A stretch of DNA of 64,000 nucleotides, from assembly GCF_010501095.1 (NCBI RefSeq), contig NZ_QVMP01000001.1, forward strand, positions 1-64,000, read 5' to 3'. The DNA comes from Dysgonomonas sp. 520 (lineage in GTDB: Bacteria; Bacteroidota; Bacteroidia; Bacteroidales; Dysgonomonadaceae). The position numbers were made by a program, and so were the translations under genes. The notes under the pieces were generated by a model, which had not been told where the DNA came from, made no database searches, and saw only the letters and a list, made by a program, of their open reading frames with translations. Positions 10,048 through 25,669 of this stretch are shown piece by piece; position 1 is the stretch's first letter; every line of letters starts with the position of its first letter.

Positions 10048-10141
10048 TCTTCTTGTTTTTTCATTGAACAATCGACACAATCAACCAAAAGCAAGTTGTA
10101 TATTCTCATTCAATATAAACCCTAATAAATAAAAAATCCGG

Positions 10142-11044
10142 ATGAGTTTTCTAAAGAAAATCAGATCGTACATGATGCCCATAACAATGACTGTGGGGAT
10201 TGTTTTTCACTCCTTTTTTCAGCATTTTTACATCATAACGCCCTATCTGATTTTTTTGATGCTTTTTATCACCTATTGCAACATTGAGTTGAAAAGCATA
10301 AAACCCACAAAAATGCACTTTTTCCTTTTGCTGATTCAGATAGTTGGCAGTTTGATCGTGTATCGGGTTCTTGTTTCATTCGATGCCATTGTTGCTCAGG
10401 CGGGATTGATATGTATGCTGGCACCCACAGCCACTTCAGCCGTTGTTATAACGGGTATGCTTGGGGGCAACACAGCAAGCCTGACAGCTTATACATTCAT
10501 GAGCAATCTGACAGTAGCAATCTGCGCTCCGTTCATTTTTGCGTTAATAAGCAATCAGGGAGATGTATCATTTTTTCAGGCAACAGTCATTATCGGCGAA
10601 AAGATAGTGATATTACTGATTTTGCCATTGGTTATTGCCCTATTCCTGAAAAGATATGTATCCCCATTGTATAAAACGGTGAAGAAATCGCAATCAGGCT
10701 CATTTTACCTTTGGAATATTGCCCTGCTGTTAGTTTCGGCACAAATAACACAGTTTATTCTGGATGCCAAAGGGACAATTAATCCATATACCGAAGTAGT
10801 GATAGCACTGACAGCCTTATTTATCTGTCTTTTACAGTTTATTGCCGGAAGAAAAATCGGGAAACGCTACGACGACACCATTGCCGGAGGACAAGGACTA
10901 GGTCAGAAAAATACGATTCTTGCCATCTGGATGGCTCAAACTTACCTGAATCCACTCTCTTCGATAGGTCCGGGAACTTATGTTTTGTGGCAAAACATTA
11001 TCAATTCGTATCAGGTTTGGCGAAAAAGAAAAAATCTTCAATAA
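10142..11044 (+). CDS. BASS-family (bile acid:sodium symporter-like) transporter
   Basis: 300 aa integral membrane protein with about nine to ten hydrophobic segments. Residues ~95-135 (APTATSAVVITGMLGGNTASLTAYTFMSNL) match the conserved core of the bile acid:Na+ symporter/arsenite permease fold, where the broken helices bind sodium and substrate. Bacterial members carry various organic acids; the substrate here cannot be inferred. It stands alone between the porin and tRNA-Gln. No strong promoter or terminator was seen. Confidence 0.78.
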   Translation: MSFLKKIRSYMMPITMTVGIVFHSFFQHFYIITPYLIFLMLFITYCNIELKSIKPTKMHFFLLLIQIVGSLIVYRVLVSFDAIVAQAGLICMLAPTATSAVVITGMLGGNTASLTAYTFMSNLTVAICAPFIFALISNQGDVSFFQATVIIGEKIVILLILPLVIALFLKRYVSPLYKTVKKSQSGSFYLWNIALLLVSAQITQFILDAKGTINPYTEVVIALTALFICLLQFIAGRKIGKRYDDTIAGGQGLGQKNTILAIWMAQTYLNPLSSIGPGTYVLWQNIINSYQVWRKRKNLQ

Positions 11045-11102
11045 CTAAGACATTGAAACTTAAGGCTGTTTTTGAAATATAAATAAAAAACAGTTTTATT
11101 GT

Positions 11103-11132
11103 TTTGTTTTTAATAAAAAAGGTATATCTTTG
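11103..11132 (+). promoter_or_regulatory. Promoter of tRNA-Gln
   Basis: TTTG at 11103-11106 and TATCTTTG at 11125-11132, 18 bases apart. The box ends 25 bases before the tRNA. Confidence 0.8.
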
Positions 11133-11157
11133 CATCGCTTTTCAAGCAAAAAGGGAT

Positions 11158-11228
11158 TGTCCCATGGTGTAATGGTAACACAGCTGATTTTGGTTCAGTC
11201 GTTCAAAGTTCGAATCTTTGTGGGACAA
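11158..11228 (+). tRNA. tRNA-Gln(TTG)
   Basis: A 71-base cloverleaf with a 7-bp acceptor stem TGTCCCA/TGGGACA, a D arm around GGTGTAATGGTAACAC, an anticodon stem GCTGA/TCAGT around loop TTTTGGT (anticodon TTG, 11190-11192), and a T arm CAAAG/CTTTG with TTCGAAT. The 3' CCA is not encoded and would be added by the Cca enzyme. It has its own promoter and terminator, so it is a single-gene unit. Confidence 0.96.
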
Positions 11229-11234
11229 CAAGTG

Positions 11235-11275
11235 AAAAACGGTTATATATCGAATTGATATGTAACCGTTTTTTT
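11235..11275 (+). terminator. Terminator after tRNA-Gln
   Basis: A stem of about 17 bp (11235-11251 with 11257-11273, one G-T wobble) around the loop GAATT, ending in an uninterrupted T-tract. Confidence 0.92.
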
Positions 11276-11299
11276 TAGATTGAAAGACAACTATTTTCC

Positions 11300-12544
11300 T
11301 TACTCAAATTTGATTGATTTTGCAGGCAATATGCGAGCAATCAGATAAGAAGGACCTATCATCATCATCAAGGAAACAAGAAGTGTGCCTATATTGATAA
11401 GTACAATATAAATGATATTCAGTTCGATAGGCACTTGCGAAACGTAGTATACGGAAGCATCCAGCTTCAATATTCCAAAATATTTTTGAACAAGGCATAT
11501 TGTCAATGCTATTACATTTCCCCACAGCATGCCTTTCAGTATGAGGAATGAAGAAACATAGAGAAATGTTTTTCTGATGGAAAAGTTTTTGGCTCCCAAA
11601 GCCTTTAATATACCGATCATATTTGTCCGTTCCAATATCAGGATCAACAAACCCGAAATCATGGTGAATCCCGAAACGGCCAACATGAGGATGAGTATCA
11701 CCCAGACATTCATATCGAGCAGGTTCAGCCAATTGAAAATCATCGGATTCTGATCAATTACGGAGACTGTGAAAAATGTATTGCCCAACCTGTCATGGGT
11801 TGCAGCCATATCAATGAAAAGATCGTTCCTGATTTCTTGCAAACGATCGAAATCATTTACAATAAGCTCAATTCCACCGAATTGGTCAGATTCCCAACTA
11901 TTGAGTTTGCTAATAATATTTATGTTTGTTATGACGAATATTTTGTCATAATCTTCAAAATTTGTATTGTAGATGCCTGTAATAGTGAACTTTCTCACTT
12001 TTGGCGGATCTTGAATAAAATAGCAGAAAAAGCTATCGCCAAGTTTCAAGCTTAGCTTATTGGCAATATATTCCGAAATAATAGCCTCGTAAGCAGAGAT
12101 TGTATCAGAAACATTCAGAACGCTTCCTTCCACCAGGTTGCGCTTGAAAAAACTCCAGTCGTAATCAGATGTAACACCTTTCAATACAATGCCTTGAAAG
12201 TCATTATCTGTCTTTATAATTCCGGGTTTTGTAGAAAAAACCTCTACGTGTTTTACTTCCGGTTTCGATTTCAGGAAATTCAAAAGGCTATCGTCTACGC
12301 ATACAGGATAGGTTTCATAAGAGTTGTTATTCTCAAAATTAGAGATCTGGATGTGAGAACTGAAACCGACAACCTTGTCCCGTATTTCTTGTTTAAATCC
12401 AACAACTATACAGACAGCCAATATCATGGTGGCCAATCCCAGGGCTATTCCGGCAACGGCTATTTTTATGGCAGGTGACGATGCTTTATTCTTATTATCT
12501 CCTTTGAAGTATATTTTTCGGGCTATGAATAACTCTAAATTCAA
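11300..12544 (-). CDS. LolC/LolE-type ABC transporter permease
   Basis: 414 aa. One N-terminal membrane helix (residues ~25-50, IKIAVAGIALGLATMILAVCIVVGF) is followed by a large periplasmic domain and three C-terminal helices (~280-400) with the FtsX-type motif region ILKALGAKNFSIRKTFL. This is the membrane part of the LolCDE lipoprotein-releasing or MacB-like machines. The matching ATPase (LolD) is not adjacent. It probably moves lipoproteins from the inner membrane toward the outer membrane, but that is a family inference. Confidence 0.88.
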   Translation of the reverse strand: MNLELFIARKIYFKGDNKNKASSPAIKIAVAGIALGLATMILAVCIVVGFKQEIRDKVVGFSSHIQISNFENNNSYETYPVCVDDSLLNFLKSKPEVKHVEVFSTKPGIIKTDNDFQGIVLKGVTSDYDWSFFKRNLVEGSVLNVSDTISAYEAIISEYIANKLSLKLGDSFFCYFIQDPPKVRKFTITGIYNTNFEDYDKIFVITNINIISKLNSWESDQFGGIELIVNDFDRLQEIRNDLFIDMAATHDRLGNTFFTVSVIDQNPMIFNWLNLLDMNVWVILILMLAVSGFTMISGLLILILERTNMIGILKALGAKNFSIRKTFLYVSSFLILKGMLWGNVIALTICLVQKYFGILKLDASVYYVSQVPIELNIIYIVLINIGTLLVSLMMMIGPSYLIARILPAKSIKFE

Positions 12545-12699
12545 AATCTTATCGTTTTACTGTATATCCGCACAAAGGTAAGAAATAAATCAAATTATTG
12601 CATTTTGAGGCTTATCGGAAAAATATTTCAATCAAAATTATCCATGTATTATAATCTTTCTTCAATAATTACGTTATATGTATAATTAAAATAAAAATT

Positions 12700-12707
12700 T
12701 ATCTTTG
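12700..12707 (+). promoter_or_regulatory. -7 box for porQ
   Basis: TATCTTTG matches TAnnTTTG, 32 bases before the ATG. Confidence 0.65.
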
Positions 12708-12739
12708 TCTTTTGGGACTAAGAACTCTTACAACAACCT

Positions 12740-13753
12740 ATGAACATACGTTTACATAAAATATTTTTAGTAACATATATTCTGACATTCTTCTTTAACA
12801 CAATACTTAACGCTCAGGATGGAGAAAAAGCATACAGGTTTCTTAACCTTCCTTCATCGGCCAGAGTGAATGCGATGGGAGGAAGCAATGTCTCTTTGGT
12901 GGACAACGATTTGTCTCTTGTATTTCACAACCCTGCGCTTCTGGGTACGGAAATGGACATGAACGTCAACCTCAACTATATGTCGTATATAGGTGACATT
13001 AGGGTTGGGAGCGCAATTTTCGGAAAAGCAATAAACGACATCAGTGCGTTTTCGGTAGGAATCAACTACCTCGATTATGGCGATTTTTTAGAGGCATCTC
13101 CCGAAAATATTACAGGAAGCAATTTTTCGGCGAAAGACATAGCTATAAACGGTACGTATAGCCGAGATTTGTCAGAAAGATGGAGAGGTGGAGTCACAGG
13201 CAAATTTATCTACTCTTCCTACGAAAACTATACATCTACGGCCGTAGGGTTCGATGCAGGATTGAGCTATTATAATCCGGATAGCGATGCTGCCGTAGGA
13301 TTCGTTATCAAAAACGTAGGGGCGCAAATTTCTGCCTACAACGACAAACGGGTAAGCCTGCCTTGGGATGTAAACGTCGGTTTCTCGAAGCGGTTGTCTC
13401 ACGCTCCGGTTCGTGTATCGGCAACGGCTGTTTACCTCACTCAATGGAAATTTGAAAAAGTGAATGCTGCAAATGGCCTGGAACCCGACAAAAGTAATTT
13501 TTTCAGTGTATTGATGAAACACTTGGTTTTCGGGGTAGATATAATTCCGTCCGATAATTTCTGGATTGGCGTAGGATATAACCCTAAAGTACATTCGGAT
13601 ATGAAAATACAGGATGGAAATAAATGGGGCGGCTGGAATGCCGGAGCCGGATTGAGGGTAAAGAGATTTAACATAGGCTTTGCCTTGGCGCAATTTCACC
13701 CCGATGCCACTTCCTATCACTTTAGTTTAGGCATAGATTTGTCTAAATATTAA
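12740..13753 (+). CDS. porQ: Type IX secretion system protein PorQ
   Basis: 337 aa with a signal peptide of about 25 residues ending ...NTILNAQ. The start of the mature protein (YRFLNLPSSARVNAMGGSNVSLVDNDLSLVFHNPALL) is the hallmark of the PorV/PorQ/UPF0164 family, and the overall length fits PorQ. The rest is beta-barrel-like (FadL-type) with repeated glycine/aromatic strands, consistent with the outer membrane. PorQ is part of the T9SS that exports proteins carrying a C-terminal sorting domain; such a protein is encoded at 50966-51310. No other T9SS gene is beside it. Confidence 0.85.
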   Translation: MNIRLHKIFLVTYILTFFFNTILNAQDGEKAYRFLNLPSSARVNAMGGSNVSLVDNDLSLVFHNPALLGTEMDMNVNLNYMSYIGDIRVGSAIFGKAINDISAFSVGINYLDYGDFLEASPENITGSNFSAKDIAINGTYSRDLSERWRGGVTGKFIYSSYENYTSTAVGFDAGLSYYNPDSDAAVGFVIKNVGAQISAYNDKRVSLPWDVNVGFSKRLSHAPVRVSATAVYLTQWKFEKVNAANGLEPDKSNFFSVLMKHLVFGVDIIPSDNFWIGVGYNPKVHSDMKIQDGNKWGGWNAGAGLRVKRFNIGFALAQFHPDATSYHFSLGIDLSKY

Positions 13754-13861
13754 ACCGGAACCAAACACTTCAAAAACAGATTCCCGATAGATATACGGAA
13801 AGAAAGCAGGACAGCCACATCTAATTGCGATGATGTTGGCATTTTCGATGTATGTATATAT

Positions 13862-13955
13862 AAATAAAAAAAGGTTGTCATCACGACAGCTTAAATTTCA
13901 ATTGTAACACATTGGCTTTCAATAACCATATCTAATCAAAATGACAAAATGCACA
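13862..13955 (+). repeat. Hairpin element, copy 1 (degenerate)
   Basis: AGGTTGTC (13872-13879) and GACAGCTT (13885-13892) pair with two G-U wobbles. Downstream blocks TTCAATTGT, AACCATATCTAAT and a CACATTA block follow. The same order of blocks occurs at 45001-45084. The rest of 13754-14186 shows no gene or promoter that I can support. Confidence 0.55.
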
Positions 13956-14186
13956 TTAAAGTGCACATAGACAAGGTTTATAATGAGTTATTTCCTACTG
14001 CAAATATACATAGGTTTATTCATTTTGTAACGACTGACAGTAAGTTTTTTTTGAACTTTCTTTGTTAATGGTAAAAACCACCTATGTAGGAGTAACATGT
14101 GGCTTCATAAAGTAATACATGAAGATAAAGTCAGTCACTTTACATAGTTTGTTTCTTTACGAATGCTAATGGTAATTTTATAATCA

Positions 14187-14897
14187 TTAAGGGACCTTTA
14201 CCCAAAGATGCAATAAGTCGATATCATCAGATATTCTTTTAGCAGTAGAGCGAGATATTGAATATGTTTTATTTGGCTCTATTTCTAAATCACTTAAGCA
14301 CTCACAACTTTTCCATTCTTGAGGTAATTCAGTTGCTTTACTTAAAATCCATCCATTTATTGTATTATGCCAATGTAAAAAGTCATCTTGTTCAATATAA
14401 CCTAACAATGCACTTTTTGACAAACCATAACCATGATCACTAGTTTTGAATCTTTGAATTCCACCAGAGGGGTTACCACTGTCACAATATCCTATCACAT
14501 ATTCAATTTCCCGAGTGCCTTTTCCTGTAGGTAAACGTTTTGCTTCGACAGCATATAAACTTTTCTTTGATACATTTTGCTCTGAAGATATAAATACAAA
14601 ATCAACTCTTTTTGCAGGATTACCACCTGAATAATAGTCCTTAAACTCTGGAACAACTAAGACACCTCGACTATGATTAATTAAGCTTCGATTCAGGACA
14701 CTCGTAAATTCCTGAGTAAAACCTTCTTCATTCAAATTCCTAGTAAAAACACCATTTGATATATCTTGCAAAAAAATAGGAATATTTTCTACCAATATAT
14801 TTTCATATATATTTTCTAGCTTTACACTTGGCGTAAAAGCTGGTACGTTTGACGTTGATGAATTTATAGAATCATTTACCAACATATCAGTAGTCAT
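14187..14897 (-). CDS. PD-(D/E)XK nuclease-like protein, partner of the N6-adenine methylase
   Basis: 236 aa. The core VDFVF (Asp99) followed by YAVEAKRLP (Glu118, Lys120) has the D...ExK spacing of PD-(D/E)XK nucleases. The surrounding region (RVDFVFISSEQ...GTREIEYVIGYC) looks like a restriction-endonuclease fold. Its start overlaps the end of the upstream methylase gene by 11 bp, so the two are translated from one message. The likely role is the cleavage subunit of a type II-like restriction system, or a nuclease accessory; no close family is recognised. The gene and its partner are visibly more AT-rich than the flanking host genes, which fits horizontal acquisition. Confidence 0.7.
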   Translation of the reverse strand: MTTDMLVNDSINSSTSNVPAFTPSVKLENIYENILVENIPIFLQDISNGVFTRNLNEEGFTQEFTSVLNRSLINHSRGVLVVPEFKDYYSGGNPAKRVDFVFISSEQNVSKKSLYAVEAKRLPTGKGTREIEYVIGYCDSGNPSGGIQRFKTSDHGYGLSKSALLGYIEQDDFLHWHNTINGWILSKATELPQEWKSCECLSDLEIEPNKTYSISRSTAKRISDDIDLLHLWVKVP

Positions 14898-17607
14898 TTA
14901 ATATGTCAGCAAATACACTATCTGCATCACGGTAGGCAATTGATGCTAACCAATAGCGTTTTTGATTAGGTTTAATAAATAACACCTTATTTGGTGTGTA
15001 ATATTGTATAACTCTTGTTGCTGTAAGGCTTTGATTTATATCAAAATGAGTTAATCCTTCAATTCCTGTTGCTTCATCTTCGTTAATTATTCGGATCTCT
15101 TTCTTTTCTTCGTCATCGTAAGAGAATAATGCTCCGATTAAGCCTTCTTTCTCAAATTTTATAATGTTCGTAAGCTTAAATAAATTTGTCTGATCTGCAT
15201 ATAAATCATTTATAGCAGTTGAAAACTCTTGTCCATAAAAATAAATTTCTGATTCAATGTTCTTTAATGGTTTTAGGGCTTCAGCTGTTTCGGGCTTTCT
15301 TATAAAATATTGAGTATATTCTAATACATCATTAATGACATTTTTTTCTATTTCAGATAGAATGAACGACTCATCCAATATAGGTAAACGCATTATATCT
15401 TCTTTAAGTATTGCAGTGTTTTTTCCTATTAAAACTTGACTACTTGTTATAAAAATAATTAAACGATGGAAGTCTTGATAATTTGATAATGATCTATACA
15501 ACTCTGCAATCGGTTCAATATTCTTATGCAAAGAGTATATTCCAATTAATTTATGTTTAAACGTAAAGTTAATGTTATTATTAAAATAAATTGGTATTTT
15601 ATTTTTTTCAATATTTTCTTTTATTATAATATTGGGATATTCATATGTAGAACGATTTTTTATTGATATAAATTTCTTCTTCCTGTCTATAAAATCTAAT
15701 TGATTAAAATCAATTCCATCTTCATTAAAAGCTCGTGTTGGAAGTGTTTTATATTCATACATAAAATCTTCAGAAAGGTCTCCTTCTATACCGAACATAA
15801 AGCCTTCATTAGCTTGACATTCATTGGAATCTAAGTAGTCTTGAACTTTTACAGACTCAGAATATTTGTGATATAAATAATTCAATCGACCTCCTCCAAG
15901 AAGATTTATTTTGAATATGTAGGGGTTTTCGTAAATCGCTTGACGAAGAATAAAATGTAAGTCATATTTATCTATCTCAAAATAGATTCTTTCTTTATTT
16001 GTTTTCGTTCTACGAAAAATTGCATGTAATATATTTTTATCGTAATCTGGTTTAGCTTTGGTTACAAATATTGCAGCAGTATCAACATCAACCCCATCCC
16101 ATAAAACTCCATTACGAGCAAGAGGTGTAAAATCAAAAATTTGATTAATATGAAAGTTTTCTGTTAGTGCCCTTAGGTAGGCTTTAGACGAATCGCTACT
16201 ACTATATAATAGAGGTAAGGCTTTTACTATTAAACACGATATTCCATTATCTTTTAGCAAGGTCAAAGAGTCTCCTAAAAATTTTAATGCAATTTGGTTC
16301 TGAGGAATATCAACAGATAAGCTATCATTTACTTGCCAAATTTTCAAGTCATCTTTAACTCCACCTCTTACAAAAGGGGGATTTCCTATGACGAGATCGA
16401 ATTTAGTCTCTTTTCCTATATTTTTTTTCCATAAAAAGAAATCATTACAGTAAACTATTTTTTCTTCAAGTTTATCAAACCTCAAATCATCCCATATTTC
16501 TTTAGGTGAAAGTTCATCACATAAGGCAATACAAAGGCTGAATATTGAAATCTGAACAGCTTTTGGGTCGTAATCTATACCACAAAGAGATTGTTGTAAA
16601 CCTATTAAATCCTTTAACTCAGGTTTTTTGTAATTATTTTGTTGTCGCCACCACTGTACTAAGCGTTTGAAGGCAACAACAAGAAATATAGCAGAACCAC
16701 ATGCAGGATCTAAAATTTTATAGTCTTTTATATTGGATGGGTATTGATTAATGGGCATAACCTCATTAATCAATAATCTCACTAAATGGGATGGTGTGTA
16801 TGCAACACCATCATTTTTTTTAGTTCCTTCAACTAATTGATCTTTCTTTTTCTCTTTTATGATAAACTCTTCATACAGACGACTAATTAATTCAACTGGA
16901 ATATGATTGAAAGAATACAGCCTGGAAAAATTATCATCAAAATCAATTTGATATTGATGATTTGAACCTAAATATCCTTTCAATACTTCGGCTAAATAAG
17001 AAAGGGCAGATTCTTTCCCATCGAATAATCGAATTTGACTTTCTTCCCAATGAAAAATACCCCCATTAAAATGATTTTTATTCAAGTCGTCAAAAAATAA
17101 AAACACCTTGCCATTTACCAATATATCGCTAAATTGCTGGCCATCGTATTTTTCAAAAAAACTAGAAGGAAAAACCGAGTTATTATTTTCGTCACGCCTT
17201 TCTTCCAGATATTTTATAAGAATACATTGTATAATTAATTTTTGAACAACATCCTTGTTATTAGCTAATCCAGAATCTTTAGTAAACCTGTTTATTACTT
17301 TACGTAATAACTCTGTCAATTTACTGTAAGAAGAATATTTGTAAAAATCAATACTGGAATTATCCCAATAGCTACCAGCCTTTAATTTTTGAGCAAAAAA
17401 CTTGTTATAAATGCTATGACCTTTAGCTATTGTCTTTAAGTTTTCAACAATATATTCAGGCACATATTTATCCTTTTCTTTCTTTATCGGCTTGCTAGTG
17501 TCTAATATTTTTGTTTCGGTCTTTGAGAACACACAAACCAAAGGAATATCTCCTCCTGTCCATACATTCTTATGAATTTCGGTTAGGACACTTTCCTCAG
17601 CTAACAT
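14887..17607 (-). CDS. N6-adenine DNA methyltransferase (type IIG/Eco57I-like), N-terminus lost
   Basis: 906 aa as an open frame. Motif I DPACGSA lies at residues 300-306 and the catalytic motif IV NPPF at 409-412, so it should bind SAM and methylate adenine N6. A helical N-terminal domain precedes the catalytic core, and the ~450 C-terminal residues look like a target-recognition domain. The frame continues upstream in the same phase to an ATG at 17847, interrupted only by a TAA at 17670-17668. The normal protein was therefore about 985 residues, and this ORF would need reinitiation at 17607. Core motifs are intact, so residual methylase activity is possible. A nuclease-like gene overlaps its 3' end. 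Confidence 0.82.
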   Translation of the reverse strand: MLAEESVLTEIHKNVWTGGDIPLVCVFSKTETKILDTSKPIKKEKDKYVPEYIVENLKTIAKGHSIYNKFFAQKLKAGSYWDNSSIDFYKYSSYSKLTELLRKVINRFTKDSGLANNKDVVQKLIIQCILIKYLEERRDENNNSVFPSSFFEKYDGQQFSDILVNGKVFLFFDDLNKNHFNGGIFHWEESQIRLFDGKESALSYLAEVLKGYLGSNHQYQIDFDDNFSRLYSFNHIPVELISRLYEEFIIKEKKKDQLVEGTKKNDGVAYTPSHLVRLLINEVMPINQYPSNIKDYKILDPACGSAIFLVVAFKRLVQWWRQQNNYKKPELKDLIGLQQSLCGIDYDPKAVQISIFSLCIALCDELSPKEIWDDLRFDKLEEKIVYCNDFFLWKKNIGKETKFDLVIGNPPFVRGGVKDDLKIWQVNDSLSVDIPQNQIALKFLGDSLTLLKDNGISCLIVKALPLLYSSSDSSKAYLRALTENFHINQIFDFTPLARNGVLWDGVDVDTAAIFVTKAKPDYDKNILHAIFRRTKTNKERIYFEIDKYDLHFILRQAIYENPYIFKINLLGGGRLNYLYHKYSESVKVQDYLDSNECQANEGFMFGIEGDLSEDFMYEYKTLPTRAFNEDGIDFNQLDFIDRKKKFISIKNRSTYEYPNIIIKENIEKNKIPIYFNNNINFTFKHKLIGIYSLHKNIEPIAELYRSLSNYQDFHRLIIFITSSQVLIGKNTAILKEDIMRLPILDESFILSEIEKNVINDVLEYTQYFIRKPETAEALKPLKNIESEIYFYGQEFSTAINDLYADQTNLFKLTNIIKFEKEGLIGALFSYDDEEKKEIRIINEDEATGIEGLTHFDINQSLTATRVIQYYTPNKVLFIKPNQKRYWLASIAYRDADSVFADILNDY

Positions 17608-17667
17608 TAAGGCTGTGAAATCATAGATATATATTTGTGGTATATATTCGTTGTCTTTGATACCCTT

Positions 17668-17847
17668 TTAAAAAAAAACAGCACCCGCCTTATAGAGTTG
17701 TGCTTTTTCTAGTTGAAACCAAACCTCAGGTAAAGAACTATACTTCTCTTTTTCTTTAGTAAAAAAGAGTAATAAGTCTCTTTCAGAAGCTAATCCTAGT
17801 TCTGAAAGGCCCTGATCTATGATGTCATTTTCATATGGGTTTCCCAT
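17668..17847 (-). pseudogene. Severed N-terminal 59 codons of the methylase
   Basis: ATG at 17847 begins MGNPYENDIIDQGLSEL and runs 59 codons to an in-frame TAA at 17670-17668, just after a run of nine T on the coding strand. The 20 codons after the stop (KGIKDNEYIPQIYIYDFTAL) continue the family's normal 'VYFR..d...P..YIYDyT' N-terminal sequence into the 906-aa ORF in the same frame. This is a nonsense change, not a frameshift. A good promoter lies directly upstream. Confidence 0.8.
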
Positions 17848-17854
17848 AATTGTA

Positions 17855-17884
17855 CAAATATAATCACTTTTTGCCGTTTAACAA
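17855..17884 (-). promoter_or_regulatory. Promoter of the restriction-modification genes
   Basis: On the minus strand, TTG (17884-17882), 19 bases, then TATATTTG (17862-17855), ending 7 bases before the ATG at 17847. The match supports 17847 as the original start and implies a very short leader. Apart from this and the repeats at 18085-18177, the stretch 17885-18258 is very AT-rich and holds no gene I can support. Confidence 0.75.
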
Positions 17885-18084
17885 TAAAATAAATTAATTA
17901 GTTATTTATCAACAATTTAATGTTTTGTAATTATTATATTAAAGCAAATACTTTAATCCTTTTTTAGTATAGATAAATGATGAGAGATTTAATAAAAAAG
18001 AAAGCTCCTACACTTATTATATGTATTTGATTTTTCATCTGCATTTTAGAAACGTTTTTTCCATAATAGTTCTATTTTTTAGTA

Positions 18085-18177
18085 AAGGCACTATTGCCAT
18101 TAGTAATATAAAAATATTATGTAAACGATTTATGTAAAGTTTATGGATTTTAGAATATTACAGGCACTATTTGCCTG
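18085..18177. repeat. Paired short palindromes upstream of tail cassette (candidate operators)
   Basis: AGGCACTATTGCC (18086-18098) and CAGGCACTATTTGCCTG (18161-18177, perfect 6-bp arms CAGGCA/TGCCTG) are two copies of one palindrome. Between them TTATGTAAA occurs at 18117-18125 and again at 18130-18138, a 13-base period. The group ends 81 bases before the first tail gene and could bind a regulator. Confidence 0.45.
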
Positions 18178-18258
18178 ATTTACTTTCCATAACTGAAGAC
18201 TTTGGATAAATTTTGTTATGTAAGACTTTCGATAACAAAATCAACGGAAAGAAAACTT

Positions 18259-19164
18259 ATGGAGACAAAGAATAAAATAGACAGCAACAACAGCCAGCGG
18301 ATGATAAAGGAAGCAATCCGTAAGATAGCTCTGGGCAGGAGTATGGACCGCATCGATATGGCTCCCGGAGGAACAAGCGGTGTTGGAACTGCCCGGATGA
18401 TCCACGGTTATGTTGCCAAAATACATGATGATGAAGCGGATGAAGAGTTTGAAGAATATGCCGGAACAATCGATGTTGGTGAATTTCCGGATGAGACATC
18501 CAGTACAGAACCAATAGTCCATAAGGGAGTGTTACTATCCGGAGCAAAGGATAATTCGGAAGGTTTTTTGGTAATCCCGACATTGTATTCGGATGTAACT
18601 ATTGTCAGTGATGCTGCCACGAAATATATGTATGTCCTGAACTTCTCTCATGCCGATGTTATCCAACTGAATGCGCATAAAGAAGTGACAGTTGGTGTTA
18701 TTGAAACCGAAGAACTCGATCCGGAAGATAACGATTCACCTGATTATGATGAGTTGAAGCCGACAGGCAATAAGGCTGTGACTTCTTATTCAGCCGATGC
18801 AATACATACAGCGGTAGAAAACAAAGACGGAAAAGCTGCGGATACCCTGCATACATCCGAGCAAATCACGCATACAGTTGATAAGTCTAGCGTAAGCCAG
18901 ACAGCGGATAAAATACAACAGAAAGTCGGAAGCACCGCTGTTACCCTTCAGGAAAACAAAGTAACAATCGGGGAAGAAACGGCAACCGAACCATTAGTAT
19001 TAGGAAATCAATTGGCTCAATTAATGCTGGAATTCCTGACGGAATGTTCCAAGATTATGACTCCGACATTGATGGGAACCATGCCAGCTGTTAATGCACC
19101 CAATTTCGCATCGCTTATTTCCAAAATACAGAAATTCCTTTCACAAACAGCCTTTACCAAATGA
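18259..19164 (+). CDS. Phage baseplate/tail-spike-like protein (OB-fold, gpV-like)
   Basis: 301 aa. Residues ~45-130 (ARMIHGYVAKIHDDEADEEFEEYAGTIDVGEF...) look like the beta-barrel of tail spike/hub proteins. Residues ~190-260 carry repeated short strands (HTVDKSSVSQTADKIQQKVGSTAVTLQENKVTIGEE), as in the trimeric beta-prism of gp5/gpV needles. The C-terminus is helical. The ATG at 18259 has a GGAAAGAAAA ribosome site; a longer frame from TTG 18202 was rejected. It overlaps the next gene by 4 bp. I infer a structural tail-tip role; no enzymatic motif is visible. Confidence 0.6.
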   Translation: METKNKIDSNNSQRMIKEAIRKIALGRSMDRIDMAPGGTSGVGTARMIHGYVAKIHDDEADEEFEEYAGTIDVGEFPDETSSTEPIVHKGVLLSGAKDNSEGFLVIPTLYSDVTIVSDAATKYMYVLNFSHADVIQLNAHKEVTVGVIETEELDPEDNDSPDYDELKPTGNKAVTSYSADAIHTAVENKDGKAADTLHTSEQITHTVDKSSVSQTADKIQQKVGSTAVTLQENKVTIGEETATEPLVLGNQLAQLMLEFLTECSKIMTPTLMGTMPAVNAPNFASLISKIQKFLSQTAFTK

Positions 19165-20825
19165 GTGTAACATTACATCCCGCTATAAAAGAACTGGATA
19201 CAGAAAGCCTTTGTTACAGTATTTATACGCAACTGTACCATAATTTTTTTAATGCCCAGGATAAAAAAGATGAAAACCATCCCTGGGGGATTGTTGAAGG
19301 AAACGAAATATCTGTCCGTTTGCACAACACGGCTTATGGTTTTGCAGAAGCCATTGCCGGAGGCGTAGCAGGGGAAGGAAATGGAGATCAAAGCGGGATC
19401 TTAATGGACTACCTGAAGAAGAGTGGCGGTGATATGACCGGAATGTTACGTGCTAATTACGGCTTTGAAGCAGGCTATAATAATACCTGGATTATCCGGA
19501 CTTACCTAAAACAGGGTGTCATTTATGGTGTCAGATTTAACGGCGATGTGGAGATTGGAGCCACGAATCTATATATAGGTGGCAAACGGATAATCTCTTA
19601 TGATAATCAGACAGGTACAGCTTTGTTTATAAACCGCGATATTAGTTTCTCGGATTCCACATTGCACTCTCAGGGAGATTTTATTTTCGGAGACAGTAAA
19701 GAATCGGGGGTTTATATTTCTCCTTCTACCCTGCTGGTAAAAGGTAAAGAAGTTTTCCATGCAGGAAATGCCAATCTGGAGAGTGTAAGCTGGAGGATGC
19801 TTGACGGATTGATATCGGGAAACCTTACGGTTAAAGGTGAAACCAAACTATCCGGAATGCTCAGGGCCTGCAGGGGTGTAGAATTCGGCATTGATGATAA
19901 AGTAATCGTTTCAATAGATAAACAGGGAACTGTTAATCTGAACAACTATCTATCCTTTGCATCGGGCTTCGGAATAAAGATCGGCAATATCCCCGTCTTA
20001 ACGAGAATAAACGGGGAAAATATACAACTGGGTGCTGCAGGCGGTGATTTGCTTCTTGGCAGTGAATACACTGATAAAGTCAGATTGTTGGCAAATATTT
20101 CCGATGTCGATGGAGATTATGTCCTCGTAAGTAAATACGGGGCGGCCTATTTTCCGGATTCGTTGACGGTCCGCCATAATTACGGAGACAATCTGTTATC
20201 CAGTTACCGTGTTGATTCAAACGATGAAGGGATAATCGTTCATAAAAAACTAAGGTTTGGCACATCAAGAGGTGCATATTTATATGGAAAATCGGATGGT
20301 ATCAGTTTTACATCCTTTGTTGAACATATTACACCCGACAAGAAAACGGTCTTTTATTATGAAATTCTGTTTAAATACGGGATTTCAACCAGCCGCTACC
20401 AACCGCAAAACAGAATTTCCGATTCACTTATTATTTCGACTAATGCAGATTTTATCACGTTTGATAAACCCATCGAATCAAAAAGTCACATAGGAATTGA
20501 TAATTCTTTCACCAGATTAACCGCCGGATGCCTATTCTTTAACAACGAACAGTATTTTCTGGCTTCTGCGGACGGGATTAAACACCACGGAAATGCTTAT
20601 TTCCTGAATGATTTGTCATCGGAAAGATTCTCGTCCGGATTTGCGGGTTCAGGTTGGGCTGTGATGCATAATAAAATTACAGGTAATGTTGCCGCTACTT
20701 TTGATGAACTGACAATCCGCAAAAAGATGCGTATTTATGAACTGGAGGTTCAAAAAATAAGTGCAACGAACGGTGCATTATGGGTCAGTGACAATTGTTC
20801 GGGAGATACGGTTGTTAGATTATAA
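19161..20825 (+). CDS. Phage tail-fibre-like protein
   Basis: 554 aa, overlapping the previous stop by 4 bp. It contains fibre-type phrases: SGGDMTGMLRANYGFEAG (residues ~91-108), EVFHAGNANLESVSWRMLDG (~197-215) and many 'tinGtv..nnyl' beta repeats. These resemble the shaft modules of Bacteroidetes phage fibres, where a conserved xFHAGN joins shaft segments. The last 20 residues carry no recognised chaperone domain. It is expected to be a trimeric receptor-binding fibre. No frameshift is seen. The ATGA junction and spacing indicate translation coupled to the spike-like gene. Confidence 0.6.
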   Translation: MSVTLHPAIKELDTESLCYSIYTQLYHNFFNAQDKKDENHPWGIVEGNEISVRLHNTAYGFAEAIAGGVAGEGNGDQSGILMDYLKKSGGDMTGMLRANYGFEAGYNNTWIIRTYLKQGVIYGVRFNGDVEIGATNLYIGGKRIISYDNQTGTALFINRDISFSDSTLHSQGDFIFGDSKESGVYISPSTLLVKGKEVFHAGNANLESVSWRMLDGLISGNLTVKGETKLSGMLRACRGVEFGIDDKVIVSIDKQGTVNLNNYLSFASGFGIKIGNIPVLTRINGENIQLGAAGGDLLLGSEYTDKVRLLANISDVDGDYVLVSKYGAAYFPDSLTVRHNYGDNLLSSYRVDSNDEGIIVHKKLRFGTSRGAYLYGKSDGISFTSFVEHITPDKKTVFYYEILFKYGISTSRYQPQNRISDSLIISTNADFITFDKPIESKSHIGIDNSFTRLTAGCLFFNNEQYFLASADGIKHHGNAYFLNDLSSERFSSGFAGSGWAVMHNKITGNVAATFDELTIRKKMRIYELEVQKISATNGALWVSDNCSGDTVVRL

Positions 20826-20864
20826 ATTTGTCAGCATTCTTAATTTTTAATTCTTCATTTAATT

Positions 20865-22808
20865 ATGTCTGTATATAATTATCCGAAATTCAAAATACTG
20901 ATTGACCCGAAGTCAAAAAAGACACAGGGACTATGTGTCGGTGATGTAGTCAGAAGGCAATATTTCGACAATCCGAACCTGATCTATTCCTTAATGATTG
21001 TAACGGATACCGGAACCGAGTTGGTCGGTGAAGGAGAGTCCGCCTATTTTATCGGGGCGTTGATTGAAGGCGATGAGCCTAAAACGGGAGAAATACTGGA
21101 TTTTGTTCGTATCACCAATTTATTTGATACAAACCGCAGCGGAGCTTTATATCTGACTGCTTCGGACTGCGAATCCCCGTTTATGGATGTAATCGATGGA
21201 TTAGCTATCGAAAATTCCTTATGCTTTCCTTATTTGTATAAAGGAAAGCAGGATATTCCCGATAAAAATAAATATGCCTGCGTGGGAGAAAAGTATCTGG
21301 ATGTAAGCTACATCCAATCAGGAAGTGAAGCAAACAGGATTTTCAGGATAACAAGAAATACCGTCAATAATACAATAGATAAAATTGGTTTTAAGCAATC
21401 TATCGGGAAACGGTTAGAACATCCGCAAAGGCTTATCATATCTTATAAGGTTAGGGCATCCAAAAGCCTGACAAATGTTCCTGTTTCATTTGGATATACC
21501 TCCGGTTTGGAAATGGACGGGACAGATATTATAGAAATTAAAGCTGATTGGGAGTATAAATTGCATCTGGTCACTATAGACTATCCGGCTTCTTATCAAC
21601 GGAGTTTCTTTATTGATCTTACCAACTTTCTGAAAACCGAAGGAGACTGGTGTGAGATCGCCGAGTTGAACATTGTGCTCCAATCGGATATTTCAACTTT
21701 TGCCGGAGCAACGAAAACCCGTATCGGAAAAGTCAAAGGAATAGTCGATCCTGTATTCGGAGTATTGGACGGGTATGGAGCTTATTTTCAAAATCTATAT
21801 GCAACAAAGAACGTAAACATAGCAGGAACCCTGACTGCCGGTGACGAAAACGGATTCAGTTCCACCTTTTATGTTGGTAAAATACATAAGAATATCATTC
21901 AAAATAGTATTGATTGCAGTTTTGAAGATATTTTTACTGTAGAAATTGAGAATGAGACTCCCGTCGGTATAGGCTCTGTCTGGCAAATGGGGTATTATGC
22001 CAAACTTATTGTTCAATCCCATGAATGGCGAACCGCACATATCGACAAAAAGTATTGTTTTTCATTTTGGACCAAAGCGAATAATGATGTTGTACTTTCT
22101 CTGTATCAGGATGAATATTACTTGCAGGATATTATCATTACGGCAAGTAATGAATGGAGACGTCATTACCTGTCTTTTCCTATTCAAAAATCGGAAGCAT
22201 TAAATCTGATAATCCGTATAGATGCTACAAAAGCAGGTGTATTAATTTCCGCTCCACAAATGGAATCGGGTATTACACCTTCCCAGTATCAACCCACTGA
22301 CGGAACCCTTTCGTATGTCGAAGATTATGGGGCTTGGTTCAGTAAAGGAGGAATCGGAGGAACGATTCAAAACCCGCTATTAAAGTTGAATGCCGATGGC
22401 TCCATTTCTTCCCGCGACAACTCCTTTGTTATTAATCCCGATGGAACAGGACATTTTGCTTCAGGACGTTTCAATTGGACAAAAGATACGATTACACTTC
22501 AGGATGTGACCATTCGTTGGGAAGACCTTAATAAAGAGGCTCAGGAGAAACTTAAACCCATTGTTGTTGAAATCGTAAGTAACCGGGGATTTATTATAAA
22601 GAATGGAAATAATAATGTTGACGCGACAGCTAAACTGTATCGTGACGGAAAAGAACTGGATACCGAAGGTGTTTTTTATACCTACACATGGAGTTTATGG
22701 AACAGGACAGGAACCGTTGTTATCAAAACTTATACCGGAAAATCAATAATTGTGGATAAAAATGATGTTACCGGTTCAGGTGTTCTGACCTGTGAAGTAT
22801 TGGTGTGA
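20865..22808 (+). CDS. Phage tail-tip/fibre-like protein
   Basis: 647 aa, 39 bp after the previous gene. The N-terminal ~110 residues (NYPKFKILIDPKSKKTQGLCVGDVVRRQYFD...) form an unrecognised domain. Residues ~340-480 look like two jelly-roll, carbohydrate-binding-type modules (CFSFWTKANNDVVLSLYQDEYYLQ...; APQMESGITPSQYQPTDGT, the usual annotation of a fibre-attached CBM-like fold). The C-terminus has an Ig-like strand set (KPIVVEIVSNRGFIIKNGNNNVDATAKLYRDG). The same FxxWxKA/CBM pattern recurs in the fibre pseudogene at 40009. I infer a receptor-binding structural protein. It is the last gene of the cassette. Confidence 0.55.
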   Translation: MSVYNYPKFKILIDPKSKKTQGLCVGDVVRRQYFDNPNLIYSLMIVTDTGTELVGEGESAYFIGALIEGDEPKTGEILDFVRITNLFDTNRSGALYLTASDCESPFMDVIDGLAIENSLCFPYLYKGKQDIPDKNKYACVGEKYLDVSYIQSGSEANRIFRITRNTVNNTIDKIGFKQSIGKRLEHPQRLIISYKVRASKSLTNVPVSFGYTSGLEMDGTDIIEIKADWEYKLHLVTIDYPASYQRSFFIDLTNFLKTEGDWCEIAELNIVLQSDISTFAGATKTRIGKVKGIVDPVFGVLDGYGAYFQNLYATKNVNIAGTLTAGDENGFSSTFYVGKIHKNIIQNSIDCSFEDIFTVEIENETPVGIGSVWQMGYYAKLIVQSHEWRTAHIDKKYCFSFWTKANNDVVLSLYQDEYYLQDIIITASNEWRRHYLSFPIQKSEALNLIIRIDATKAGVLISAPQMESGITPSQYQPTDGTLSYVEDYGAWFSKGGIGGTIQNPLLKLNADGSISSRDNSFVINPDGTGHFASGRFNWTKDTITLQDVTIRWEDLNKEAQEKLKPIVVEIVSNRGFIIKNGNNNVDATAKLYRDGKELDTEGVFYTYTWSLWNRTGTVVIKTYTGKSIIVDKNDVTGSGVLTCEVLV

Positions 22809-22948
22809 ATAACCATTGAGTTCTTCAATTATATATAAAGGACAATAGAATTTAACACAACCTCAACAATTTGTTATTCTCCGCTTATTTATTTCGTAAC
22901 CAATAAGAATAAACTTTGCACACGAAATACATAAAGCAATAAATAAAG

Positions 22949-25669
22949 ATGTCTAAACAAACAATTATTAAATTATTGGGATCCCTGTTTTTAACATTTC
23001 CCCTTTTCTTATCGGCACAATCAATAAAAGGGACTGTCACAGACAGTAAGACACAAGAAACATTACCCGGAGTAAGTATCATAATAAAAGGTACTAATAT
23101 CGGAACGGCAAGTGATATGGATGGTAATTATCAAATAGATGTACCGGCTGGTATGTACACAATAGTCGCCACTTATGTATCTTATGCAACAGTAGAGATA
23201 ACCGACGTAGAAGTAAGAAATGATAAACCGGTTATTTTAAATGTATCATTAAAAGAGTCAATACAAGGCCTCTCGGAAATTGTTGTAAAAGCCCGAAAAA
23301 ATATGGAAGCAGAAGGAATGCTAATGATGGACCGTAAGGTTTCAACCATCGCAGTTGAAAGTGTGGGAGCGAGGGAAATGTCAATAAAAGGCCTTTCGAC
23401 GGTTGCCGACGGTATCAAAAAAATAACGGGTATTTCAATGGAGGGTAACAGTAAAGTCCTGGTAAGAGGGCTGGGCGACCGTTACAGTATGACCTCACTG
23501 AATGGTTTTCCTATAGCATCACCTAATCCGGATAACAAACTGATCCCGCTCACACTATTCCCGACATCGGTTGTAAAAAATGTAACCGTGAGTAAAGTAT
23601 ATCAGCCTTCTGTTTTTGGCGACTATTCAGGTGCTCATATCGATGTGGAAACAAAGGAAAATATCGGTACCGATTTTATTACCCTCGGTATATCAACCGG
23701 TGGACGAACGAATGTTCTTTTCGCCGATTTTTATTCCTCTGATAAAGCAGGCGCTAAAGCTCCTTATCTTGGAATATCCGGTGGTTTATTTTTAAATGAT
23801 AAAATAAAGGATATGAGCCGGGGCGAATTTCAGGACTATTACAAAAACAATCAATTGTTCAAAACATCATTTCAGATAGAGAAAAAAACAGCTATGCCCG
23901 AACTGGGACTGGAATTCGGTGCCGGTAAATCATGGAAAATAGGAAATCAGAAATTAAATGCGATGATCGCAGCCAATTTCAACAATGATTACAAGATATA
24001 TGATGACGCCTATACCTCTTCGGTAAATGCACAAGGGGATGTCAAGCAAAATTTCCATTATGATAAATATACGTATGAGACAACATTTACTTCCCTAGCC
24101 CAGATAAGTTACACGTTGCGTCAAAACGATATGTTATCCTATAATGTAATGTTTGTAAACAATACCGAGGATGAGTTTAAGGAACGGGACGGTTTCGATG
24201 CAGAAGGAGTCCCCCTGAAAGGGAGCAACAGTCTGTATCATATCTATACCTTGTTGAACAACCAAATAACAGGAAAGCATCAGTTTGTGGGTAACCGCCT
24301 CTATATTGACTGGCAAGGATCATACGGACGAACAACGAGTGACGAACCGGACAGACGGCAGGTAATGTTCCGCAAAAATGATGATGGTACACTGTCACTA
24401 TTCAGGTTGAACCAGCAAGAAACGATGCGCTATTTTTCCGACTTGTTTGAAGACGAATGGAACGGCGATGCAAAAATCAAATATATATTAAATAAAGATG
24501 CTGAAAAACCAAACTTTATGCGGTTAGGCATATCCCTAAGGAATAAATCGAGAGATTTTTACTCTGCGAATTTCTATTACGACATAAATCTGTTAAATCC
24601 TCAGATAGACAATGTTTACGATACGAATTCCTATTTGAATGAAGAAAACATCAAAAACGGGACATTAACAATAAACCGGGTTTCCCAAAAACGTAATTCG
24701 TATTATGCAGGAACAGATATATATGCAGGTTTCCTCGATATGGAATATTATGTTACGCCACAATTGTTAGTTGCCGGAGGATTACGTTTCGAAAAATCGA
24801 AACAATGGGTTCGTTACTGGAACGACCAAGCCGAAGAAAAACGGGCAGAAATGAATGTTGACGACTTCTTTCCTGCATTGAATATAAAGTACACAATCGA
24901 GGGAGAGAACACCCAAAACTACCGTTTCAGTGCATCACGGACAATCACCCGCCCTTCTTTTCTCGAAATGGCACCTTTCTCCTATCAGGAATCCTATGGA
25001 AGCAGTATGGTAATTGGTAATGACAGTATTCAAAACGGCTACAATTATAATTTTGATATCCGTTACGAATTATTTACCAAATCGGGAGATATGTATTCTA
25101 TCAGTGCATATTACAAACATCTGGACAATCCGATAGAACAGATTCAAAAATACTCGGGAAGCGTGATAAAAAGCTTCAGGAACGTAAACAAAGGAACAGC
25201 TGCAGGCATCGAGCTGGAAATAAGGAAAAAAATCACTAACGACCTGAGAATAGACTTCAATGCTTCATACATTTATACACACATCAGTTTACCTAAAAAT
25301 GGTCTTTATACCGACAAATCAAGACGATTGCAGGGAGCTTCACCTTATCTGATAAATATTGACATTAACTATTCGCCAAAGTTTTCCAACAACAGGGTGC
25401 TTTCCCTTTCTGGCGTATACAACCTGCAAGGGCCACGTATCAGCTCTGTAGGGATAAACGGAGTAAGCAATATTGTGGAACAGGAAGTACACTCACTCGA
25501 CTTTATCACAGCCTATTCACTGAATCAGAAGATGAAGCTGAAGTTTCATGCAAAGAACATACTGAATCAGAAAAACGAATTTACACAAGAGATAAATAAC
25601 GTGGATAAAGTAGTGGAATATTACAAAAAAGGGATTTCGTTAGGAATCGGTTTTTCAATGAATTTCTAA
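22949..25669 (+). CDS. TonB-dependent outer-membrane receptor
   Basis: 906 aa. A signal peptide (to ~22, ...FPLFLSAQS) is followed by a carboxypeptidase-regulatory-like beta-sandwich (~24-105, GTVTDSKTQETLPGVSIIIKGT), a plug domain (~120-240, with LVRGLGDRYSMTSLNG) and a 22-strand-type barrel to the terminal GIGFSMNF. TonB/ExbBD energy would drive uptake of its ligand. It is not followed by a SusD homologue, so a SusCD glycan system is unlikely. The next gene, 43 bp downstream, is a beta-helix lipoprotein that may be its surface partner. Ligand unknown. Confidence 0.92.
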   Translation: MSKQTIIKLLGSLFLTFPLFLSAQSIKGTVTDSKTQETLPGVSIIIKGTNIGTASDMDGNYQIDVPAGMYTIVATYVSYATVEITDVEVRNDKPVILNVSLKESIQGLSEIVVKARKNMEAEGMLMMDRKVSTIAVESVGAREMSIKGLSTVADGIKKITGISMEGNSKVLVRGLGDRYSMTSLNGFPIASPNPDNKLIPLTLFPTSVVKNVTVSKVYQPSVFGDYSGAHIDVETKENIGTDFITLGISTGGRTNVLFADFYSSDKAGAKAPYLGISGGLFLNDKIKDMSRGEFQDYYKNNQLFKTSFQIEKKTAMPELGLEFGAGKSWKIGNQKLNAMIAANFNNDYKIYDDAYTSSVNAQGDVKQNFHYDKYTYETTFTSLAQISYTLRQNDMLSYNVMFVNNTEDEFKERDGFDAEGVPLKGSNSLYHIYTLLNNQITGKHQFVGNRLYIDWQGSYGRTTSDEPDRRQVMFRKNDDGTLSLFRLNQQETMRYFSDLFEDEWNGDAKIKYILNKDAEKPNFMRLGISLRNKSRDFYSANFYYDINLLNPQIDNVYDTNSYLNEENIKNGTLTINRVSQKRNSYYAGTDIYAGFLDMEYYVTPQLLVAGGLRFEKSKQWVRYWNDQAEEKRAEMNVDDFFPALNIKYTIEGENTQNYRFSASRTITRPSFLEMAPFSYQESYGSSMVIGNDSIQNGYNYNFDIRYELFTKSGDMYSISAYYKHLDNPIEQIQKYSGSVIKSFRNVNKGTAAGIELEIRKKITNDLRIDFNASYIYTHISLPKNGLYTDKSRRLQGASPYLINIDINYSPKFSNNRVLSLSGVYNLQGPRISSVGINGVSNIVEQEVHSLDFITAYSLNQKMKLKFHAKNILNQKNEFTQEINNVDKVVEYYKKGISLGIGFSMNF

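Follow-up and report, generated by a model that had tools for sequence, protein, structure and literature searches.

A tail spike, fibre and tip gene block in Dysgonomonas sp. 520 is very probably a remnant of a contractile-tailed temperate phage

The window, i.e., the whole stretch of 64,000 nucleotides of Dysgonomonas sp. 520 DNA that was analysed, carries three adjacent genes that very probably remain from the tail operon of a temperate, contractile-tailed phage related to BS-TP1, the rest of the prophage having been lost. This reading is based on the same three-gene order in Bacteroides phage BS-TP1 and in the record MT835494.1, on the baseplate-hub gene found upstream of the spike in nearly all related loci and on the contractile-spike order of folds in the spike model. 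It is further based on the cognate sheath, which was not found in the source genome though control genomes matched strongly, on a further fragment of this phage type that occupies the corresponding site in a genome of another genus (G006) and on the fusion of parts of two phage genes in the tip. The features of the locus are as follows.

11158-11229: tRNA-Gln
11300-12544: LolC/E-like permease gene, below the NCBIfam cut-off
12740-13753: PorQ gene, the first clear host gene leftward, above the NCBIfam cut-off
14187..14897, minus strand: methyltransferase partner gene, 236 aa, no family found, overlapping the methyltransferase gene
14887..17607, minus strand: type IIG-like adenine methyltransferase gene, 906 aa, probably former phage cargo (Pfam Eco57I, E 5.4e-20; PADLOC REase_MTase_IIG, E 3.3e-23)
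17608..18258: interval separating the spike from the methyltransferase ORF, no phage similarity upstream of 18277
18259..19164, plus strand: tail spike gene, putative membrane-piercing tip, 301 aa (homologues in 53 loci and two phage records; AlphaFold model and fold comparison)
19161..20825, plus strand: tail fibre gene, 554 aa (PHROG tail-fibre match; synteny with BS-TP1 gp31)
20865..22808, plus strand: tip or receptor-binding-like gene, 647 aa (gene-3 and gene-4 matches; CBM4-like and CBM22-like modules in the model)
22809..22851: border zone between phage remnant and host DNA on the right side (DNA homology to G006 starts at 22852, with looser similarity back to the stop codon)
22949-25669: TonB-dependent receptor gene, downstream of the tip (Pfam)

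The three frames are open; the spike and fibre ORFs overlap by 4 nt, and the tip ORF begins 39 nt past the fibre end. The 301 aa of the spike are counted from the ATG, but its open frame extends back to include a TTG at 18202. The initial annotation had described three intact, coupled genes with spike, fibre and tip roles, and this was confirmed by the ORFs, by synteny for all three, by PHROGs tail matches for the fibre and the tip and by fold for the spike and the tip. None of the three proteins matched a Pfam family at the Pfam cut-offs. The fibre matched a PHROGs tail-fibre family at residues 478-545 (E 1.4e-8), and a short stretch of the tip matched a PHROGs tail family (E 6.1e-16). A chance origin of the ORFs is excluded because homologues that cover most of each protein occur in the same order in two phage records and many loci.

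In MT835494.1, the spike, fibre and tip are 66%, 52% and 56% identical to those of the window, and in BS-TP1 (PQ571274.1), where they correspond to gp32-gp31-gp30 in the order and orientation of the window, the values are 36%, 32% and 42%. The BS-TP1 block follows the tape measure and two baseplate-hub genes in a genome of 111.7 kb, whereas the window block stands alone, and the BS-TP1 tip has 842 aa, whereas that of the window has 647 aa and a different end. The name BS-TP1 was not found among the titles and abstract openings returned by part of the literature search. The closer relative, a prophage-like region of MT835494.1/Phocaeicola coprophilus DSM 18228 (L004, L040), is also a partial phage, whose phage genes stop just past gene 4. 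Unlike the window, it retains the region from the portal through gene 4, including the hub, tape measure and sheath.

In the scans, 25 related loci came from bacterial genomes and 28 from viral contigs, a total of 53 that includes some near-identical copies; the closest relatives of the block are 66-73% identical. A homologue of the baseplate hub lies upstream of the spike in 51 of the 53, and in the two exceptions (L030 and L060) the contigs end about 1.4 and 1.6 kb upstream of the spike. The window is thus the sole locus observed with a genuine absence of the hub. It has the three homologous genes of a BS-TP1-like block in fixed order on one strand; the hub and tape-measure genes do not precede them, and it was therefore filed as a module remnant and not as a phage. 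The initial suggestion of a prophage scrap agrees with this, as the block belongs to a tail module known from phages, in which the hub and tape-measure genes normally come first. The opposite situation was observed in Alistipes sp. RGIG9059 (L044), where phage similarity ends within the spike (10001-10543): the hub and cargo are retained, and the fibre and tip are missing in the fetched 10 kb.

The AlphaFold monomer model of the spike (mean pLDDT 71, pTM 0.45) contains an OB-type domain at about residues 47-136 and then a beta-helix at about 168-237, which is the arrangement of contractile-tail spikes of the gp5, gpV or VgrG type. The spikes of phi92, P2 (gpV), phi812 and phiKZ and VgrG likewise have an OB-type domain and a beta-helix in a single chain; however, they show no above-threshold sequence relation to the window spike, the best PDB sequence match being a VgrG at E 0.059. 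Foldseek gave no match at E 0.001, the best being the phiKZ baseplate (E 2.0e-3). In the fold comparison, both parts were matched in order by phi812 (Z 10.0, rmsd 13.2, 151 aligned), phiKZ (Z 8.8, rmsd 10.3, 161 aligned), phiTE (Z 8.4, rmsd 8.1, 150 aligned), phi92 (Z 7.6, rmsd 6.1, 132 aligned), a VgrG (Z 6.6, rmsd 10.6, 133 aligned) and an eCIS spike (Z 6.6, rmsd 9.7, 131 aligned). The high rmsd values (6.1-13.2) indicate that the OB part and the beta-helix are placed differently. The first part of the model was matched by P2 gpV (Z 6.8, rmsd 5.3, 73 aligned); the rows for CPAP and OspA, with Z up to 9.8, concern the single-layer sheet only, and ribosomal rows the OB part only. The modelled fold suggests a piercing role for the spike.

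The model of the tip (mean pLDDT 68, with low confidence at residues 563-647) revealed a CBM4-like module at residues 89-276 (Z 14.0, 2.8 A, 154 residues) and a CBM22-like module at residues 339-474 (Z 11.8, 2.5 A, 128 residues), which point to sugar binding by the tip. The structure prediction proposed as a check of the initial annotation thus gave, on monomers, a contractile-spike fold order for the spike and carbohydrate-binding-like modules for the tip. No solved structure was related in sequence to the tip at E 1, and among plasmids only two Bacillus plasmids matched it, at residues 565-645 only.

Residues 1-578 of the tip (20865-22598) match a phage gene that we call gene 3, and the remainder (about 22551-22799) resembles the terminal part of the gene that follows it in the phages, gene 4, so that the tip gene is a gene-3/gene-4 fusion. 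Over its last 79-85 residues, identity is 61-65% to eight gene-4 ends, taken from seven phage loci and from G006, and 23-29% to 11 gene-3 ends. The gene-4 ends of the other phage loci with separate genes 3 and 4 are 87-96% identical to that of L004. The end in the window is thus an outlier, owing either to faster evolution of that end here or to an unusual phage variant. Naturally long tip ORFs of 1048-2626 aa are present in five loci (L005, L032, L033, L035 and L037), which means that the two parts may already have been joined before the phage was lost. The tip gene was the sole match of the gene 4 query in the source genome.

By homology and fold, the spike of such a phage would form a trimer that caps the tail tube and punctures the outer membrane, with the second protein acting as a fibre and the carbohydrate-binding-like modules of the third binding a glycan on the cell surface. 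Genes for the hub, the tube, the sheath and the head are missing, and so is the rest of the phage to the extent that it was searched for. The block alone cannot build an injection machine and is most likely idle, and we infer that it lacks a present function.

The search for the rest of the phage covered the source assembly (99.65% complete, 68 contigs, window included). A second copy of the spike, fibre or tip was not found in it, and the tape measure of this phage type had no match in a search run without a positive control. For the cognate hub, there were two matches, both short and weak (E 6.6e-6 and 1.6e-5; 35-36% identity across about 60-70 residues), and for the cognate sheath a single weak one (E 1.6e-8; 30% identity along part of the protein), while the same sheath query reached E 8.8e-293 or better in three control genomes. 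The weak matches are located on contigs C21 and C13 (L019 and L020), in two other contractile-tailed prophages, each of which carries its own sheath and hub genes. With the cognate sheath, hub and tape measure not found in the assembly, the full set of head, tail, packaging, replication and integration genes of a complete temperate prophage is not there. Likewise, the sheath, tube, hub and baseplate that would accompany the spike in a tailocin or an extracellular contractile injection system are not found beside the block. The whole-genome searches and the comparison of 10000-23000 with phage loci (plus-strand matches displayed) bear out the initial statement that other virion genes are absent next to the block. 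The Mu-type phage model PF09299 had no match anywhere, the 14 control genomes included, and was uninformative.

The left limit of recognisable phage sequence is the spike start, which is the place where related phages carry cargo. Beyond it lies the two-gene R-M locus (14187-17607), which is probably former phage cargo: its position upstream of the spike on the opposite strand, at the place of the slot, is like that of slot cargo and fits such an origin. It adjoins the spike, the hub side is lost, and the same R-M genes were present in no phage locus examined. The methyltransferase matched three phage records, all of them partially, and 79 plasmid records, with about 26-27% identity among the matches listed. 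For its 236-aa partner, Pfam, PHROGs, PADLOC and NCBIfam yielded no family at an E cut-off of 0.001; it may carry a PD-(D/E)XK-like motif. The methyltransferase frame runs 59 codons further upstream to an ATG (17608-17860, minus strand) and is interrupted there by an in-frame stop beside a T run; this stretch may be a broken 5' end, part of a phase-variable gene or non-coding. The block had initially been described as embedded in host sequence, which suits the right side, where clear host DNA starts at 22852; the left neighbour, the R-M locus, is not plainly host.

This cargo slot of BS-TP1-like phages, between the hub and the spike, was analysed in 16 non-identical loci of the closer group (L004 included) that were readable on both the hub and the spike sides. 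The gap between the hub and the spike is 17-44 nt in three of them (L028, L032 and L037) and 0.66-2.8 kb in the other 13 (L004, L005, L029, L031, L033, L035, L036, L038, L042, L044, L053, L056 and L057). Slot genes were scanned in nine of the 13 filled loci, each not always in both libraries, with L029, L031, L044 and L057 left out. Seven of the nine contained known or candidate defence or toxin-antitoxin families: AbiEi/AbiEii (L033), HipA_C (L035), YhcG/PDC-S02 (L036), GmrSD_N/HEC-05 (L042), DUF4143/PDC-S01 (L053), TIR/bSEFIR (L004) and ParE (L005). The cargo of L038 (Pfam only), that of L056 (PADLOC only) and the second gene of L036 gave no family. The slot could serve as a quick hunting place for new defence genes in Bacteroidales phages; none of the titles in the literature search describes it, which is not evidence of its being unpublished.

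A CTATTCTT-like box is located near the spike start in 13 of the 15 loci whose upstream DNA is cargo or unread (shuffling predicts 0.54), the pattern having been picked after looking and the box lying just inside the assigned spike start in two loci. It is present in none of the three empty-slot loci and is absent from the window. The box is possibly a late promoter. Boxes like it were also visible by eye after gene 4 in L031, L042, L043 and L057.

The right edge lies just past the tip gene that joins parts of two phage genes. Clear host DNA begins upstream of the TonB-dependent receptor gene and is common from 22852 on, with 85.8% identity, to the relative G006, which belongs to another genus of the same family and shares the receptor gene in two pieces (84% and 93%, with one stop). 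Directly upstream of the shared DNA, G006 carries a 122-codon gene-4 end (85-86% identical to L004), which adjoins on its left a minus-strand ORF to which no identity was assigned. Fragments from two variants of a single phage type thus occupy one site. Identity of the G006 fragment is 81-89% to the gene-4 ends of phages and only 61% to that of the window, and this greater nearness to the phages argues against simple common ancestry. The sharing of the site may reflect either common ancestry or two integrations at one site. The dihydroorotase of the window genome is only 75% identical to that of G006, which suggests that the TonB locus may have moved between lineages. The comparison with relatives that had been proposed as a check located the spike in the source only, among 101 genomes (the source and 100 relatives), and the other fragment of this phage type at the G006 site.

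Neither an att repeat at the locus nor an empty site in the compared relatives was found. Integration at the tRNA-Gln with an att core at the right border found no support, as 11100-18260 and 22780-22960 share no word of at least 12 bases; there are two shared 11-base words (1.35 expected) and eight 10-base words (4.4 expected). G001 was discarded as an empty-site comparison since its TonB region is not collinear with the window.

In P. coprophilus (G104), the phage region spans the portal to gene 4 and is flanked on both sides by genes that look chromosomal by eye. Its flanking stretches gave no match to replication or baseplate-wedge queries apart from one weak gp23 match (24%), while the same queries matched in Bacteroides gallinarum (G102), where baseplate and replication genes come after gene 4. 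The terminase and integrase queries had no match in P. coprophilus or in the prophage stretches of B. gallinarum, and so the absence of these genes is not inferable. Three junctions between phage and other DNA lie just past a gene-4 end or a fused end, namely at 22809 in the window, at 741 of L018 (G006) and at 26149 of L004 (P. coprophilus), and such a position directly after gene 4 calls for an explanation.

The state of the genes was assessed in 17 of the 27 closer loci (L004 included) and 15 of the 28 more distant ones (L003 included), which were also used for the trees; near-identical copies among others, L044 and, per gene, any sequence shorter than 80% of the query were excluded. Of the positions invariant in the other closer-group phages, the window has changed one among 99 for the spike, one among 100 for the fibre and none among 135 for the tip, where only residues 1-578 were covered. 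These counts are within the range of other loci (0-5 changes), and the total of 2 in 334 speaks against decay of the cassette in place. The initial view that intact frames suggest use or recent arrival and not slow decay is supported for the spike, the fibre and tip residues 1-578; the last 80 residues of the tip have diverged further than their counterparts in other phages. Either the block left phage service a short time ago or it has been kept; recent loss is judged the likelier of the two because no conservation at the site was shown. In the fibre and tip trees, the window pairs with L028 (support 0.98 and 0.94), and in the spike tree, it groups weakly (0.84) with L032, L030, L005 and L035.

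The reading of the block as a prophage remnant has points against it. The spike, fibre and main part of the tip are without the decay expected in an old idle remnant, and its intactness would be due either to a recent loss or to a benefit that the host draws from the R-M genes next to it. Moreover, the fused end of the tip has diverged (61-65% against 87-96%), so that the fusion may be older than the loss; no empty site or att repeat was found, and the cargo origin of the R-M genes is itself an inference. The undecayed genes, the carbohydrate-binding-like modules of the tip and the adjoining R-M genes would also agree with a domesticated piece, of which the host uses the three proteins, e.g., as glycan binders or phage decoys, perhaps with the R-M locus. 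We consider this improbable, as the spike occurs in no other of the 101 searched genomes, no secretion or display gene is linked to the block, and the CTATTCTT-like box of the related loci, a pattern chosen after looking, is missing here. That the host retains the spike, fibre, tip and R-M genes as one phage-defence unit, with the tail-tip proteins acting as decoys or masks of surface glycans, seems more improbable still; if true, the receptor-binding end of a phage would have been turned into a defence part of its former host.

The initial annotation had also proposed a fibre reservoir for switching, here taken as a silent store of tail-tip genes to be picked up by incoming related phages via recombination. 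The genes are intact, the phage group is widespread, and the weakly different position of the window in the spike tree leaves room for past exchange, the trees being not wholly concordant. However, neither a close donor or recipient nor a nearby recombinase or second copy was found, and relatives no closer than 66-73% give no sign of recent exchange, which makes such a store highly improbable. Its further proposal, a dispersed injection system, here taken to mean that another element lends its sheath and hub to the spike, could draw on the two other contractile tails of the source genome. These tails are distant from the phage type of the block and own their hub genes, and neither a matching sheath and hub nor the tape measure was found elsewhere, so that we give this proposal almost no credence. 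Equally little is given to an assembly artefact in which phage DNA was wrongly joined to the chromosome: the assembly is a draft of 68 contigs, but in G006, an independent genome, the corresponding TonB-receptor region likewise adjoins a piece of this phage type. As a prophage remnant, the block by itself is one more ordinary case, remnants of this general sort being common, and the more useful points come from the comparison of its relatives, i.e., the cargo slot and the gene-4 junctions.

L039, L040 and L041 are 99.93-99.99% identical to MT835494.1 (L004) over about 20 kb, flank included. The four records are named MT835494.1, Bacteroides ndongoniae, Phocaeicola coprophilus and Bacteroides propionicigenes, and their near-identity reflects recent transfer or naming trouble. 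On the left of the window block, the ends of the LolC/E-like gene and of the gene for PorQ, a type IX secretion protein (window 11300-13762), recur on contig C2 of the source genome (9609-10153 of L027) as two adjoining fragments that are about 90-91% identical to those of the window and sit near genes reading by eye like cmk, ispH and pfkA. The lolE-porQ pair of the window may be a moved or imported copy.
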